64,000 nucleotides of DNA, taken from assembly GCA_014654775.1 (NCBI GenBank), contig JACVZW010000083.1:1-64000 (forward strand), in the 5' to 3' direction. Numbering within the stretch: position 1 is the stretch's first letter; each line of letters starts with the position of its first letter. Made by a program: the position numbers and the translations under genes. Below, in pieces: positions 23,604-64,000 of this stretch. A model generated the notes under the pieces. The model had not been told where the DNA came from and ran no database searches. It was given only the letters and a program-made list of their open reading frames with translations. The DNA comes from Paracoccaceae bacterium. Lineage in GTDB: Bacteria > Pseudomonadota > Alphaproteobacteria > Rhodobacterales > Rhodobacteraceae.

Positions 23604-23741
23604 TCAGAACAACCCATCCCCGCCTTGCGTCTCTTCCGCCACCGTATCCGCCACCACCGCCCCGGCCCCGACAAGGACCACGGGCGCGCAGGCGGGCAGG
23701 GTGAGGAGGGCGATCAGCGTGGCGATCCGGGCGTGGCGCAT
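23604..23741 (-). CDS. 45-residue lipoprotein
   Basis: A very short gene encoding MRHARIATLIALLTLPAC and then APVVLVGAGAVVADTVAEE and TQGGDGLF. The hydrophobic stretch ends in a lipobox (LPAC, Cys18), so a 27-residue lipoprotein would remain after signal peptidase II. AAAGGA lies eight bases before the ATG. The QGGDGLF tail is also present in the decayed copy at 22657-22755. The function is unknown. Similar micro-lipoproteins occur in Rhodobacterales, as far as I recall. Confidence 0.65.
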   Translation of the reverse strand: MRHARIATLIALLTLPACAPVVLVGAGAVVADTVAEETQGGDGLF

Positions 23742-23865
23742 CGGGCAGTCCTTTCCATGGGTCCGGCCCCCAGACTATGGCATCCGCCGCACCCCTGTCA
23801 CCGACCCAGACCGCCCCATTCATGCCGCGACTGCATGGTTAATGGGGGATTCACCCACCGTGCGT

Positions 23866-23913
23866 TGCGTGCCCACAGTTTGCTGCACAAAAGGCGGCAC
23901 AGAACAGGGCACA
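23866..23913 (-). repeat. Four-unit 12-bp phased TGTG array, copy 1
   Basis: On the minus strand (23913 to 23866) four 12-base units follow each other without gaps: TGTGCCCTGTTC, TGTGCCGCCTTT, TGTGCAGCAAAC, TGTGGGCACGCA. The last two units are identical to those of copy 2 at 61167-61214. A GAATC (CcrM-type site) ends 13 bases before the first unit (23927-23931). A second GAATC (23848-23852) and TTAACC (23837-23842) follow the last unit. It lies in the intergenic region between the lipoprotein gene and the ParA-like gene. Confidence 0.7.
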
Positions 23914-23956: not shown

Positions 23957-23975
23957 AATGCTGCAATGCAGCATT
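23957..23975 (+). promoter_or_regulatory. Inverted repeat before the ParA-like gene (PhaR-like site)
   Basis: AATGCTGCA, one A, then TGCAGCATT form a perfect 19-bp inverted repeat 19 bases before the parA-like start codon. Its core is CTGC-AAT-GCAG, which fits the CTGC-N3-GCAG pattern I recall for PhaR, the polyhydroxybutyrate regulator of Rhodobacter and Paracoccus. Autoregulation by the ParA-like protein or its partner is the alternative. Confidence 0.45.
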
Positions 23976-23994: not shown

Positions 23995-24621
23995 ATGGGC
24001 AAGGTCATCACCGTGGCGCAGCAGAAGGGCGGGGCGGGGAAAACCACCCTCGCCGTCAACCTTGCCGTGGAATTTCTGCAGCGCGGTCAACGGGTGGCAC
24101 TTCTGGACACCGATCCGCAGGGCAGCCTTGGCCGCTGGTTCATGGCCCGGCGCGATGGGGTGGGGGTCGACGGCCTCGACTTTTCCACCGCCTCGGCCTG
24201 GGGTGTCAGCTATGAATGCGAGAAACTGAGGAAAACCAACGACTTGGTCATTGTGGATACGCCCCCCAAGGTGGATGCCGACCTCCGCCCCGCCCTGCGC
24301 GAGGCCGACTTGGTGCTGATCCCCGTCGCCTCCAGCCACCTTGATCTTTGGGCGGTGGACGGGGTCCTCGACCTCATCCTGCGCGAATCCCGCCCTGCTT
24401 TGATCGTGCTGAACCGCTGGAAATCCGGCACCCGTCTGGCCGACGAAGTCGCGCAAGCCGCTGAAGGAAAAGCGGAAATCGCCACGGCCCGGCTCGGCTC
24501 ACGCGTGGCATTTGCCGAAGTGCTGGGGCAGGGACGCGGGGTGGGCGAAGGCCCCAAGACCCCCGCGCGCGTCGAAATGGCGGCCTTGGCCGACGAGATC
24601 GCCGCCCGCCTTCAACCCTGA
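23995..24621 (+). CDS. ParA-family ATPase (orphan)
   Basis: A 208-residue deviant-Walker ATPase: KGGAGKTTLAVNLAVEF (residues 11-27), the switch I region LLDTDPQGSLGRWFMAR, and switch II VIVDTPPK. It is the short form without an N-terminal DNA-binding domain, and no parB gene is adjacent, so it is not the chromosomal segregation ParA. Such orphans position cargo such as chemoreceptor clusters, carboxysomes or polymer granules. The ATG at 23995 follows GGAGAG; a GTG 12 bases upstream is less likely. Its 3' end overlaps the convergent small membrane protein gene by 10 bases. Confidence 0.85.
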   Translation: MGKVITVAQQKGGAGKTTLAVNLAVEFLQRGQRVALLDTDPQGSLGRWFMARRDGVGVDGLDFSTASAWGVSYECEKLRKTNDLVIVDTPPKVDADLRPALREADLVLIPVASSHLDLWAVDGVLDLILRESRPALIVLNRWKSGTRLADEVAQAAEGKAEIATARLGSRVAFAEVLGQGRGVGEGPKTPARVEMAALADEIAARLQP

Positions 24622-59802: not shown

Positions 59803-61131
59803 ATGGCGCGAGCGATGAAGGTGGCGATCGTCGATGACGAGGCGGACATGCGGCAGTCGATCAGCCAATGGCTGGCGCTTTCCGGTTTCGACACCGAGAC
59901 CTATGCCAGCGCCGAAGAGGCGCTCAAGGGCATCGGGCCGGAATTTCCGGGCGTCGTGGTCAGCGACATCAAGATGCCGGGGATGGATGGCATGGCCTTC
60001 CTGAAACGTCTGATGGGCATGGATTCCGGGCTCCCCGTGATCATGATCACCGGCCATGGCGATGTGCCCATGGCGGTCGAGGCGATGCGGGTCGGGGCCT
60101 ATGACTTTCTGGAAAAACCCTTTAATCCCGATAGGATGACGGAACTGGCCAAGCGGGCGACGCAGGCGCGGCGGTTGACGTTGGACAACCGGGCGCTGCG
60201 GAAGGAACTGTCCGACGGGTCGATCCTGATGAAAAAGCTGATCGGATCGAGCCCGGTGATGGAACGGCTGCGCGAGGATATTCTCGATCTGGGACAGGCG
60301 GACAGCCATGTCCTGATTGATGGCGAGACGGGCACGGGCAAGACGCTGGTCGCCCATGCGCTGCATGCGGTGGGACCGCGCGCGTCGAAGAAGTTCGTCA
60401 CCATCTCTTGCGCCGCATGGTCGGAGGATCAGCTCTCGGCCAAGCTGTTCGGCCCAAGCGAGGACGGGCAGATCCCGCTGGTCGAAGAGGCGCGGGGCGG
60501 CACGCTCTGCCTTGAGGATGTGGAGGCGCTGAGCCATCCGCTGCAGGCGCGGCTGCTGACGCTGATCAACGATCAGGGCACGCCCCCCGAGACGCGCATT
60601 ATCGCCATCTGCAACGAACACGCGCCCGACAAGACGCTGGAAGACCTGCTGCGGTCCGATCTCTACTATCGCTTGGGGGCGATGACGATCCTGTGCCCAC
60701 CCCTGCGCGTGCGGGGCGAGGATATCCTGACCCTCTTCACCCGGATGTCAGAGCAGTTTTCCGAGGAATACGGTTGCGACGCGCCGCAGGTGACCGCGCA
60801 GGAGGCGGCGCAGTTGCTGCAGGCGCCGTGGCCGGGGAATGTGCGCCAGCTTGTGAACATCGCCGAACGGGCGGTGCTGCAGAACCGCCGGGGATCGGGG
60901 TCCATCGCCTCGCTCTTGATGGCCGATAACGAGGCGACGGGGCCTGCGATGACCACCGAAGGCAAGCCGTTGAAGGAATATGTCGAGGCTTTCGAGCGGA
61001 TGCTGATCGACAACACGATGCGCCGCCACAAGGGCAGCATCGTCGCCGTGATGGACGAGCTGTGCCTGCCCCGGCGCACTCTGAATGAGAAGATGGCGAA
61101 GTATGGTCTCAGCCGGGCGGAATATACCTGA
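59803..61131 (+). CDS. dctD: DctD-like response regulator lacking the GAFTGA loop
   Basis: A 442-residue NtrC-type regulator. The receiver has Asp55 in VVSDIKMPGMDG and the typical GAYDFLEKPFNPDRM end. The AAA+ domain has Walker A GETGTGKT and GGTLCLEDVEAL at the Walker B position, but where sigma-54 activators carry GAFTGA the sequence reads AKLFGPSEDGQIPLVEEA. A Fis-type helix-turn-helix ends the protein (MDELCLPRRTLNEKMAKYGL). Without GAFTGA it probably cannot activate sigma-54, as with Rhodobacter capsulatus NtrC; it may act with sigma-70 or repress. AGGGGA precedes the ATG. Confidence 0.85.
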   Translation: MARAMKVAIVDDEADMRQSISQWLALSGFDTETYASAEEALKGIGPEFPGVVVSDIKMPGMDGMAFLKRLMGMDSGLPVIMITGHGDVPMAVEAMRVGAYDFLEKPFNPDRMTELAKRATQARRLTLDNRALRKELSDGSILMKKLIGSSPVMERLREDILDLGQADSHVLIDGETGTGKTLVAHALHAVGPRASKKFVTISCAAWSEDQLSAKLFGPSEDGQIPLVEEARGGTLCLEDVEALSHPLQARLLTLINDQGTPPETRIIAICNEHAPDKTLEDLLRSDLYYRLGAMTILCPPLRVRGEDILTLFTRMSEQFSEEYGCDAPQVTAQEAAQLLQAPWPGNVRQLVNIAERAVLQNRRGSGSIASLLMADNEATGPAMTTEGKPLKEYVEAFERMLIDNTMRRHKGSIVAVMDELCLPRRTLNEKMAKYGLSRAEYT

Positions 61132-61166: not shown

Positions 61167-61214
61167 TGTGCCGTATCTTGTGCCGCATTCTGTGCAGCAA
61201 ACTGTGGGCACGCA
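61167..61214 (+). repeat. Four-unit 12-bp phased TGTG array, copy 2
   Basis: TGTGCCGTATCT, TGTGCCGCATTC, TGTGCAGCAAAC and TGTGGGCACGCA follow without gaps. Units 3 and 4 are identical to copy 1 (23866-23913 minus). GAATC lies 12 bases before unit 1 (61150-61154) and TTAACC starts 18 bases after unit 4. The array begins 35 bases past the dctD stop and is 475 bases before rne. Confidence 0.7.
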
Positions 61215-61637
61215 GCGTACGCTCTGCCCGCGTTAACCTTAACCAGAGGTTGAGCGCGTCGCCCTGCCTGCACCCTTTGGTGACGGATTGCAGGAGGGCG
61301 GTGAAATTCACCCATTGTGTTTTACGTCTCTTTGCCGCTAGGGTCGCAGGACGCGGGGTTTGCCCCGCCGATGAATTCTCTGCCCGCCATCGCCGGACCT
61401 TTGGAACGGACCGCGAGGGCGGCAGTCGGATCGGCCGCAAGGTCGTCAGTTTGCCCGTCATGTCATTAGACGCAGCGGGCTTAATCAGGTGGATGCCGCG
61501 AGGCATTCGAAAGAGAACCGCGATGATGCGCGCGATTTCGAGGACGAAAACCGAGGGATGCCCACCGGGCATGGCCCGGCCTTTCGCCCCGCGCCGTCAT
61601 GCCCAGACAAGCCGCCTTCACATGTCCGATCCCGATC

Positions 61638-61688: not shown

Positions 61689-64000
61689 ATGGCCAAGAAG
61701 ATGCTTATCGACGCCACGCATGCGGAAGAGACCCGCGTCGTGGTGGTGGACGGAAACAAGGTTGAAGAATTCGACTTTGAGACGGTGAACAAGCGCCAGC
61801 TCGCTGGCAACATCTACCTCGCAAAGGTCACTCGGGTGGAGCCGTCGCTGCAGGCGGCCTTCGTCGATTACGGCGGGAACCGTCACGGCTTCCTCGCCTT
61901 TGCGGAAATCCACCCGGATTACTACCAGATCCCCGTCGCGGATCGGAAGGCGCTGCTGGAAGAAGAGCGCGCCTATAACCGCGCGCAGGAAGAGGAAGAC
62001 AACCGCCGGTCCCGCAGCCGGTCGCGCCCGCGCCCCGAAGGCGCGCGCCGCGATGCGGTGAAGACGGTCGAGATCGGCGGGATGGATGTCGTCGATCTGG
62101 ACGAGGAAGAGGACAGCTCTGCCACCGAGACGACGGAGGCCGGTGCCGACACCGCGCCCGAGGCGGCGGCGGAACAGGCCCATTCCCACGATCACGACCA
62201 TGACCACGGGCATGATCATGACCACGCGCATGATCACGCGCATGACCATGATCACGGCGGACAGGGCGGCGAGAACGGGTCCGAAAACGGGTCCGAGAAT
62301 GGCGAACGCCCCTATCGCGCCATGGATCATGCCAGCGACACCGATGACGAGATCGAGTCGGTCGCCGAAGAGGATGTCGCCGAAGAGATCAGCGCGCCGC
62401 GCAAACCCCGCCCGCGCAAGTACAAGATTCAAGAAGTGATCAAGGTCCGGCAGATCATGCTGGTTCAGGTCGTGAAGGAAGAGCGCGGCAATAAGGGCGC
62501 GGCGCTGACCACCTATCTGTCGCTGGCAGGCCGTTATTGCGTGCTGATGCCCAACACCGCGCGGGGCGGCGGCATTTCCCGCAAGATCACGCAGGCTGCC
62601 GATCGCAAGAAGCTGAAGGAAATCGCGGGCGGGATCGAGGTGCCGGAAGGCGCGGGCCTGATCATCCGCACGGCGGGTGCCAAGCGCACCAAGGCCGAGA
62701 TCAAGCGCGATTACGAATACCTGATGCGGCTGTGGGAACAGATCCGCGAATTGACGCTGAAATCCATCGCGCCCGCCGCGATCTATGAGGAAGGCAACCT
62801 CATCAAACGGTCGATCCGCGATCTCTATTCGCGCGAGATCGACGAGGTGCTGGTCGAGGGCGAGGCAGGCTATCGCACCGCCAAGGATTTTATGCGGATG
62901 ATCATGCCGTCCCACGCCAAGGTGGTGAAGCGGTATGAGGATACGATGCCGCTTTTCGCCCGCTATCAGGTGGAAAGCTATCTGGGCGGCATGTTCAACC
63001 CGGTGGTGCAGCTGAAATCCGGGGGCTACATCGTCATCGGCGTGACCGAGGCGCTGGTTGCCATCGACATCAACTCGGGACGGGCCACGAAGGAAGGGTC
63101 GATCGAGGAAACCGCGCTGAAGACGAACCTCGAAGCGGCGGAAGAGATCGCGCGGCAATTGCGCCTGCGCGACCTTGCCGGTCTGATCGTGATCGACTTC
63201 ATCGACATGGAAGAGCGCAAGAACAACGCCGCCGTCGAAAAGCGCCTGAAGGAAAAGCTGAAGACCGACCGCGCCCGCATTCAGGTGGGCCGCATCTCGG
63301 GCTTTGGTCTGCTGGAAATGAGCCGCCAACGGCTGCGGCCGGGGATGCTCGAATCCACGACGCAACCCTGCCCGCATTGCCATGGCACGGGTCTGATCCG
63401 GTCGGATGACAGTTTGGGCCTGCAGGTCCTGCGCGCGCTGGAGGAAGAGGGGACGCGGAAACGGTCCAAGGAGGTGCTGCTGAAGGCGCCCGTGGGGATC
63501 GTGAATTTCCTGATCAACCAGAAGCGGGAACATATCGCGTTGATCGAGGCGCGCTATGGCATGAGCGTGCGGATCGAGGTGGACCCGATGCTGGTCAGCC
63601 CCGATTACGTGATCGAGAAGTTCAAGACCGCGACCCGCGTGGTGCCGGAACCGTCGAGCGTGATCTCGGGCCATGCGGGCCTGATGGGCGCGCCGGTGGA
63701 TGAGGACGAGGACGAGGATCTGCCCTTCGACGAGGATCTGGACGAGGCCGAAGAGGCCGAGACCGTGGAAGAACCGCGCGAGGCGCGGGGCGAGGGGCGG
63801 TCCGAAGGCCGGGGCGAAGGACGCGGCGAGGGCCGTGGGGCCGCGCCGGGCGAAGGCAGCGGCAAGAAGAAGCGCCGCCGTCGCCGGAAGAAGAAGGGTG
63901 GCGGGCCGAACGGGCTGCCGGGTTCCGACGCCGCGATGGCCGCGGGCGAGGGCGGCGAAGGGGCCGAGAGCGACGAGGAGGACGGCGACGAGGCCGACAC
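61689..64000 (+). CDS. rne: Ribonuclease E (5' part, runs off the window)
   Basis: About 770 residues are present and the frame is open to the window end. The S1 domain (residues 35-120, GNIYLAKVTRVEPSLQAAFV) is split by a long insertion from about 95 to 245 that is acidic and contains a His/Asp repeat (HDHDHDHGHDHDHAHD, about residues 165-190). The 5'-sensor and DNase I-like domain follow, with the metal-binding Asp residues in VAIDINSGR and VIDFIDME, and the zinc-link CPHCHGTG (Cys561). An acidic then basic low-complexity tail (KKKRRRRRKKK) begins the degradosome scaffold. The enzyme cuts single-stranded AU-rich RNA. Confidence 0.95.
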   Translation, partial: MAKKMLIDATHAEETRVVVVDGNKVEEFDFETVNKRQLAGNIYLAKVTRVEPSLQAAFVDYGGNRHGFLAFAEIHPDYYQIPVADRKALLEEERAYNRAQEEEDNRRSRSRSRPRPEGARRDAVKTVEIGGMDVVDLDEEEDSSATETTEAGADTAPEAAAEQAHSHDHDHDHGHDHDHAHDHAHDHDHGGQGGENGSENGSENGERPYRAMDHASDTDDEIESVAEEDVAEEISAPRKPRPRKYKIQEVIKVRQIMLVQVVKEERGNKGAALTTYLSLAGRYCVLMPNTARGGGISRKITQAADRKKLKEIAGGIEVPEGAGLIIRTAGAKRTKAEIKRDYEYLMRLWEQIRELTLKSIAPAAIYEEGNLIKRSIRDLYSREIDEVLVEGEAGYRTAKDFMRMIMPSHAKVVKRYEDTMPLFARYQVESYLGGMFNPVVQLKSGGYIVIGVTEALVAIDINSGRATKEGSIEETALKTNLEAAEEIARQLRLRDLAGLIVIDFIDMEERKNNAAVEKRLKEKLKTDRARIQVGRISGFGLLEMSRQRLRPGMLESTTQPCPHCHGTGLIRSDDSLGLQVLRALEEEGTRKRSKEVLLKAPVGIVNFLINQKREHIALIEARYGMSVRIEVDPMLVSPDYVIEKFKTATRVVPEPSSVISGHAGLMGAPVDEDEDEDLPFDEDLDEAEEAETVEEPREARGEGRSEGRGEGRGEGRGAAPGEGSGKKKRRRRRKKKGGGPNGLPGSDAAMAAGEGGEGAESDEEDGDEAD

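Follow-up and report, generated by a model that had tools for sequence, protein, structure and literature searches.

Dispersed arrays of 12-bp TGTG units in a Paracoccaceae genome resemble arrays found beside DUF6538 integrases

REP-type repeats of bacteria are palindromes tied to Y1 transposases, and gene conversion was reportedly proposed for their evolution by Higgins in 1988. The arrays described here resemble REP, BIME and REPIN sequences in forming many short extragenic copies with a bias to gene ends, but they are direct repeats, with no conserved palindrome on either strand across four species. No Y1/RAYT transposase (PF01797) scored over the cut-off in any of the 19 genomes of the genus, where a single sub-threshold match was found (in genome G009). 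A REP/RAYT identity was rejected, as both a conserved hairpin unit and a Y1 transposase over the cut-off are missing.

The STAR elements of staphylococci are described, in the abstract of the report (PMC3532100), as interspersed intergenic direct repeats whose number varies between related species, with loci that differ per species and sequences that are locus-specific. The arrays share with STAR elements, as that abstract presents them, the interspersed intergenic direct repeat; however, array loci are often common to species (44 of the 53 arrays of Tabrizicola sp. TH137) and their sequences are homogenised within species. A different point of comparison is the attP site of ICEMlSymR7A, which has five IntS P/arm-type sites with the consensus TGKTGGTATC (PMC11963761). 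There too several short TG-rich repeats serve as arm sites of a tyrosine integrase, but the consensus is 10 bp long, the element is another one, and its sites are not a dispersed family.

The reading that we prefer, and that in our view has an even chance of being right, is that the arrays form an extragenic repeat family, dispersed over the genome, whose building blocks are arrays like the arm sites of integrases. A direct-repeat unit of integrase type, shared loci and concerted evolution set the family apart from REP and, by its abstract, from STAR. Among the papers listed in searches of open-licence PMC, none dealt with the array family. The arrays offer a natural system in which to measure the homogenisation of very short dispersed DNA tracts in bacteria, and they suggest that phage integrases have a secondary role in host genomes, or have left a legacy there, that had not been suspected.

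The arrays of the window and of the source genome

The window, which is the whole 64,000-nucleotide stretch that was analysed, contains two arrays with the following features around them.

23604..23741, minus strand: small lipoprotein-like ORF of 45 aa, on the same strand as array copy 1 and 3' of it (translation; LPAC motif by eye)
23837..23865, minus strand: 3' arm of copy 1, a CGCACGGTGG-type block with TTAACC at its end (read from the sequence; compare the right-arm consensus of 48 class-A copies)
23866..23913, minus strand: array copy 1, units 23902-23913, 23890-23901, 23878-23889 and 23866-23877
23995..24621, plus strand: gene for a partition ATPase of the ParA family, oriented divergently to copy 1 (Pfam AAA_31/MipZ; NCBIfam NF041546, 193 bits against a cut-off of 180)
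59803..61131, plus strand: gene for a DctD/NtrC-like sigma-54 response regulator (Pfam Response_reg, Sigma54_activat, HTH_8)
61167..61214, plus strand: array copy 2, units 61167-61178, 61179-61190, 61191-61202 and 61203-61214
61215..61244, plus strand: 3' arm of copy 2, with GTTAACCTTAACC at its end (read from the sequence)
61310..61345, plus strand: promoter-like block 5' of the RNase E gene, CCCATTGTGTTTT...CCGCTAGGGT (alignment of 13 genomes; putative promoter role)
61689..63998, plus strand: RNase E/G gene (Pfam RNase_E_G), extending beyond the window

As the original prediction had it, copy 1 consists of four contiguous 12-bp TGTG units on the minus strand (in order TGTGCCCTGTTC TGTGCCGCCTTT TGTGCAGCAAAC TGTGGGCACGCA, positions 23866-23913), flanked by GAATC and TTAACC, and a second copy with two units in common lies at 61167-61214 on the plus strand (TGTGCCGTATCT TGTGCCGCATTC TGTGCAGCAAAC TGTGGGCACGCA). 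Copy 2 starts 35 bp past the stop codon of the DctD-like gene. All 24 bases of units 3-4 are the same in the two copies. The 20-mer TGTGCAGCAAACTGTGGGCA has only these two sites in the window at up to three mismatches (shuffle expectation 0.00), and the pattern TGTG-N8-TGTG-N8-TGTG has four matches there against 0.01 expected, which bears out the claim that the likeness is not due to chance. Neither site is coding, as the original prediction also held.

In the source genome (4.52 Mb, 93 contigs), the three-unit pattern gave 89 forward and 78 reverse matches, overlapping matches inside one array each being counted, and the same pattern read backwards gave 0+0 matches genome-wide. At least 86 arrays were found in 81 stretches (80 fetched ones and the window); the stretches cover the listed match sites other than three, of which contig C85 has two and C87 one, and with the unlisted sites the true number is somewhat higher. 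A typical copy has three or four head-to-tail 12-bp units TGTGC[CA]GNNNNN followed by a 3' arm, TGTNNNCACGCA-GCGNNCGGTG or alternatives to it, which often includes a TTAAC motif. The commonest array is TGTGCCCTGTTT TGTGCCGCCTTT TGTGCAGCAAAC. The arms fall into three types: TGTGGGCACGCAGCGCGCGGTGG-type (48 copies, of which a few have GGT in place of GGG), TGTGGCCACGCGCGGTG (21 copies), and TGTACATACAAATTTGGGCAGAG continuing to GGTTAAGGGTGCG...GTGCACAG (15 copies); the array of locus L117, which lacks the anchor, was excluded from this classing and from the analysis of gene context. Unit 1 comes in two main forms, CCCTGTT[TC] in 56 of 85 arrays and CCGGATGT in 12, with few intermediates.

The 12-bp phasing proved exact, as claimed: a control pattern mis-spaced by one base matched none of the 19 genus genomes, and the correct one matched 11. 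This control is better than the spacing histogram, which is not independent because its loci were selected by the 12-bp pattern, and in which a spacing of 12 bp was counted 109 times in the source genome, 102 in TH137, 29 in genome G006 and 25 in G012, a spacing of 13 bp once (G012) and one of 11 bp never. Forty class A and class C copies drawn at random from the four species could be aligned gap-free across 90 columns. As to the terminal inverted repeats and target duplication of MITE-like miniature elements, class C in the source genome has, by eye, TTAA-type motifs on both sides, and no locus gave a clean empty site. The TGT(G) unit starts and the 12-bp period are kept across species, and the inner bases vary by species. 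A multimeric protein-binding site, as had been proposed, is plausible.

Distribution and change between species

Further copies were looked for both in the genome and in its relatives, and were found in both. With a variant-tolerant pattern, 11 of the 19 genus genomes gave 11-179 matches each (119 in the source genome) and 8 gave none; 82 genomes outside the genus gave at most three matches each. When a stricter pattern was run against a named collection, from which records of the source genome or very near it were possibly left out, only Tabrizicola sp. TH137 was found, with 46 stretches; TH137 and G009 may be one genome and were not counted as two. The array consensus had no match in a phage collection and one record in a plasmid collection. 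A plasmid of Fuscovulum ytuae carries array copies at two places.

To establish orthology, flanks were paired with the arrays masked. In TH137, 44 of 53 arrays pair with a source array (41 distinct source arrays) at a mean flank identity of 89%, and in G006 and G012, with flank identities of 83-84%, 13 of 20 and 9 of 22 do so. Since so many flank-paired arrays are shared across species, many of the positions are old. The array sequences at these positions behave differently. Over 21 variable columns, agreement between orthologues was 0.682 for TH137, against 0.733 between paralogues within TH137 and 0.762 within the source genome; the corresponding values were 0.451 against 0.542 and 0.672 for G006, and 0.598 against 0.714 and 0.766 for G012. 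Among the 44 orthologous pairs with TH137, unit 1 has CCC after TGTG in 34 source arrays and in 2 of their orthologues. As last unit, TGTGGGCAC occurs in 28 of the source arrays and in none from TH137. As read from these alignments, the lower likeness of orthologues than of within-genome paralogues at shared loci is concerted evolution. It is incomplete: orthologues are still more alike than random cross-species pairs in TH137, where none of 2000 permutations reached the observed value, and weakly so in G006 (p = 0.038), whereas in G012 they do not exceed random pairs (p = 0.44).

In the source genome, the variants found in units 1, 2 and 3 and in the 3' arm showed no significant linkage in six pairwise tests (p 0.10-0.98), which used coarse classes and modest numbers. 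This would fit an exchange of tracts one or two units long. At one TH137 locus (L152, 2316-2636) three tandem array copies lie 115-116 bp apart with near-identical spacers, where the source genome (L102) has one; judged by these spacers, local duplication is at work too.

Arrays beside DUF6538 integrases

Outside the genus, the nearest likeness that turned up was to 12-bp repeat arrays beside phage-type integrases, several of these at tRNA-Ser. Loci with similar arrays were collected in two ways. Eight loci outside the genus (L246-L253) were chosen by eye for likeness to the motif, and six of them have nearby an integrase ORF, a tRNA-Ser gene or a by-eye tRNA-Ser 3' remnant; L248 and L253 have neither an integrase ORF nor a tRNA-Ser signal. 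The unbiased sample is the protein-led one, in which viral contigs were searched with integrase proteins only. It comprises the 15 loci where 200 bp or more precede the integrase start, two of which (L287 and L288) hardly differ; L290-L292 and L329 are among the loci with too little upstream sequence. In 13 of the 15, two or three [TC]GTG units stand in 12-bp phase on the strand pointing to the attachment side, the first of them ~20-45 bp upstream of the start of the protein match, from which distances were measured. Phased units occur in 2.8% of 300-bp background segments, which were taken from downstream of the integrase start and are mostly coding. Ten of the 15 loci have TGTGCNGC-type units, the last unit being mostly TGTGCAGCAAAA; the units deviate in L294, L323 and L325, and phased units are absent from L295 and L335. 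A tRNA-Ser was found by ARAGORN in seven protein-led loci (L287, L288, L289, L294, L321, L322 and L326), and a tRNA-Asn in L328. The integrase ORFs listed by an ORF finder do not amount to a count, because the finder missed some integrase frames.

The N-terminal domain of the integrase is DUF6538, on which a search of open-licence PMC found no paper, and the remainder of the protein is not recognised by Pfam PF00589 or by NCBIfam. The integrase profile is matched by XerC/XerD-like chains, the relatives in phage records are annotated as integrase, and R284, K315, R374, H397 and Y404, which from knowledge of tyrosine recombinases we take to be the catalytic residues, do not vary among the 20 aligned sequences. 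Three strands and one helix are predicted for the N-terminus, as in arm-binding domains (mean pLDDT 85, pTM 0.53). The protein's predicted structure has matches in Xer, Tn1549 and lambda integrases, and lambda Int chains align to model residues 1 to 401 (Z 11.7-11.9), a comparison that barely tests the N-terminal part, as the ranges give only the first and last aligned residues and the rmsd is large. From the position and repetition of the integrase-side units and from this domain, we infer that they are arm-type sites.

The dispersed arrays and those beside these lambda-family, tRNA-Ser integrases have in common the 12-bp head-to-tail unit, a last unit that is mostly TGTGCAGCAAAA, repetition in two or three copies, and best conservation of the unit nearest the attachment side. 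Unit 3 of the dispersed copies in the source genome agrees best with unit 3 of the integrase arrays (0.76, other unit pairs 0.18-0.64), as compared over 10 integrase arrays, three of them motif-picked; its end is AAAC or AAAG in dispersed copies and mostly AAAA beside integrases. The dispersed copies differ in being many and intergenic, in not lying, as far as tested, beside such an integrase, and in carrying an extra, fourth unit and a 3' arm, both absent from the integrase arrays.

Within the genus, DUF6538 and the arrays do not co-occur: the domain has no match in the array-bearing genomes G006, G007, G014 and G018, and DUF6538 proteins are found in the array-free G003, G008, G011, G013, G015 and G016. 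The idea that a resident DUF6538 protein determines the copy number was rejected, since its presence does not track the arrays. Only two relatives of the query integrase, both distant, were found in the 19 genomes, and a scan with the start of the L250 integrase found no relative. No DUF6538 integrase was detected when one such protein (L293-type) was compared by tblastn with the fetched array loci of four species; the dispersed copies are therefore not, as far as tested, the attachment sites of resident elements. In an unsystematic look no dispersed copy was met beside a tRNA-Ser gene, and no attachment core was identified.

We hypothesize that the 12-bp unit is the recognition site of the N-terminal arm-binding domain of the integrase, or of its excisionase. 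The dispersed copies would descend from integrase arrays as miniature, non-autonomous elements or, alternatively, would share a recognition module with them; they would act as multimeric docking arrays on DNA, and recombination or gene conversion between copies, in tracts down to one or two units in length, would keep them alike. More speculatively, they may form a class of non-autonomous elements in which dozens of integrase-arm-site arrays at gene ends are edited in concert, unit by unit, via recombinase-dependent or templated copying, to give one uniform version per species at shared, ancient loci; this extension we hold only tentatively. Against the integrase reading, the integrase-side arrays might be excisionase or repressor sites.

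The strongest alternative, which we regard as possible though rather unlikely, is that a host DNA-binding protein, nucleoid-associated or chromosome-organising and not an integrase, docks on the arrays. The likeness to integrase arrays would then be convergent, or would reflect DNA-element ancestry only, and the concerted change would follow the specificity of the protein. The persistence of arrays at the same loci across species where matching-type integrases are missing fits such a protein, as does the retention of TGT(G) starts and 12-bp period while inner bases change by species. However, the two discrete forms of unit 1, with so few intermediates, suggest copying over stepwise adaptation, and the integrase arrays agree with the dispersed ones in unit, period and strongest unit; both speak against such a protein.

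Several DUF6538 or recombinase genes lie near arrays in individual genomes. On the Fuscovulum ytuae plasmid (NZ_CP124537.1; L296, 4001-5218) an array stands between parB and a tyrosine recombinase gene, whose product has an 80% identical counterpart beside a TH137 array (L158) and a 27% relative at a source locus (L086). The source genome itself has a DUF6538 integrase gene at a tRNA-Ser(GGA) (L286/L312, G000:C83:166665) and, close to the start of that gene, a phased pair of units, TGTGTCACCTCG TGTGTTACCTGA; compared with the TGTGCNGC-type integrase loci, the architecture is alike and the unit different. A second source DUF6538 gene is found at a tRNA-Thr (G000:C42:10917-11084 and C42:13425-13452; L112, L301), ~2.4 kb from a dispersed array, a closeness that is possibly due to chance.

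Placement among genes and readings that follow from it

Gene context was assigned for 70 arrays with the hexamer ORF caller of this analysis, after the 15 arrays, of 85, that the caller put inside an ORF had been dropped. Convergent gaps contain 31 of the arrays, same-direction gaps 33 and divergent gaps 6, as compared with 46, 136 and 56 among all gaps of 40-800 bp in the same loci, array-holding gaps included; convergent gaps are enriched (p = 2e-6) and divergent ones depleted (p = 0.0018). Copy 1 is counted among the few in divergent gaps, the 45-aa lipoprotein-like ORF being missed by the caller. Of the 33 arrays in same-direction gaps, 21 are sense and 12 antisense (p = 0.16); the preference is thus for gene ends and not clearly for one RNA strand.

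The interval between dctD and rne, where copy 2 lies, was readable in 13 of 18 loci, the source included, with an array in 8 and none in 5; an array is thus present at the position of copy 2 in 7 of the 12 other readable genus genomes. In place of the array, four of the five array-free dctD ends have palindromic repeats of the GGAATTTGCGTCAAATTCC/GATTTCTGACGCAGAAATC type, and G004 has other sequence. These palindromes (L192, L199, L200 and L201) are found past the dctD stop, where other species of the genus have the TGTG array, and they are apparently a second gene-end repeat family. REP-like inverted repeats of another kind, GTAGGATGGGC...GCCCATCCT, lie just downstream of class-B arrays in L080 and L095.

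The enrichment at gene 3' ends, and the hairpin-type repeats that take the place of the array behind dctD in four relatives, would suit a REP-like 3' element acting at the RNA level, in mRNA 3' end protection, termination or attenuation. When ten source-genome TGTGGGCAC copies (GGG) are taken alone, both strands also yield a consensus stem, of about -12 kcal/mol, though it is not kept in relatives. We nevertheless consider this explanation improbable. The array consensus of four species folds at -1.5 kcal/mol with 4 pairs, none with double changes, so no covarying fold was found; the opposite strand gives a consensus fold of -5.2 with no conserved stem, and the folds of single copies differ from one another. 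Rfam has no match in window positions 20000-64000 and finds only a tRNA in 8 further loci, and the orientation in same-direction gaps is, as given above, not clearly biased.

The original prediction had suggested that the arrays could be a multimeric regulator site tied to cell-cycle control by CcrM, GcrA and CtrA, with conserved GANTC and TTAACC flanks; such a promoter-proximal site we find very hard to credit. The TTAAC part of the flanks did hold up. Of 85 arrays, 54 have a GTTAA/TTAAC motif no more than 60 bp downstream (shuffle mean 2.6), going with the 3' arm, and CtrA half-sites contain TTAA. GANTC, in contrast, is present in the 30 bp upstream of 9 of 85 arrays, where shuffles average 7.5, and in the 60 bp downstream of 19, where they average 13.6; it is not enriched and, being at about shuffle level, is not a feature of the family. 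The depletion of divergent gaps (6 of 70) also speaks against such a site, as does the promoter-like block ~100 bp downstream of the array in front of rne, which all 13 readable genomes retain, with or without an array.

Two individual regulators were rejected as well. CenR, the envelope regulator of R. sphaeroides, has the site TGA-N8-TGA, with an 11-bp period against 12 here (PMC9275681). PhaR sites near phaR, at three loci, are ATGCTGCA/TGCAGCAT palindromes, and the TGCNGCA palindrome is not a feature of the arrays; phaR-type genes are found in 18 of the 19 genus genomes, irrespective of arrays. Between copy 1 and the ParA-family gene, window positions 23958-23974 hold a palindrome, ATGCTGCAATGCAGCAT, and palindromes resembling it lie near the phaR-type gene of the source genome (L282). 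Given this palindrome, the ParA-like gene may be under PhaR control.
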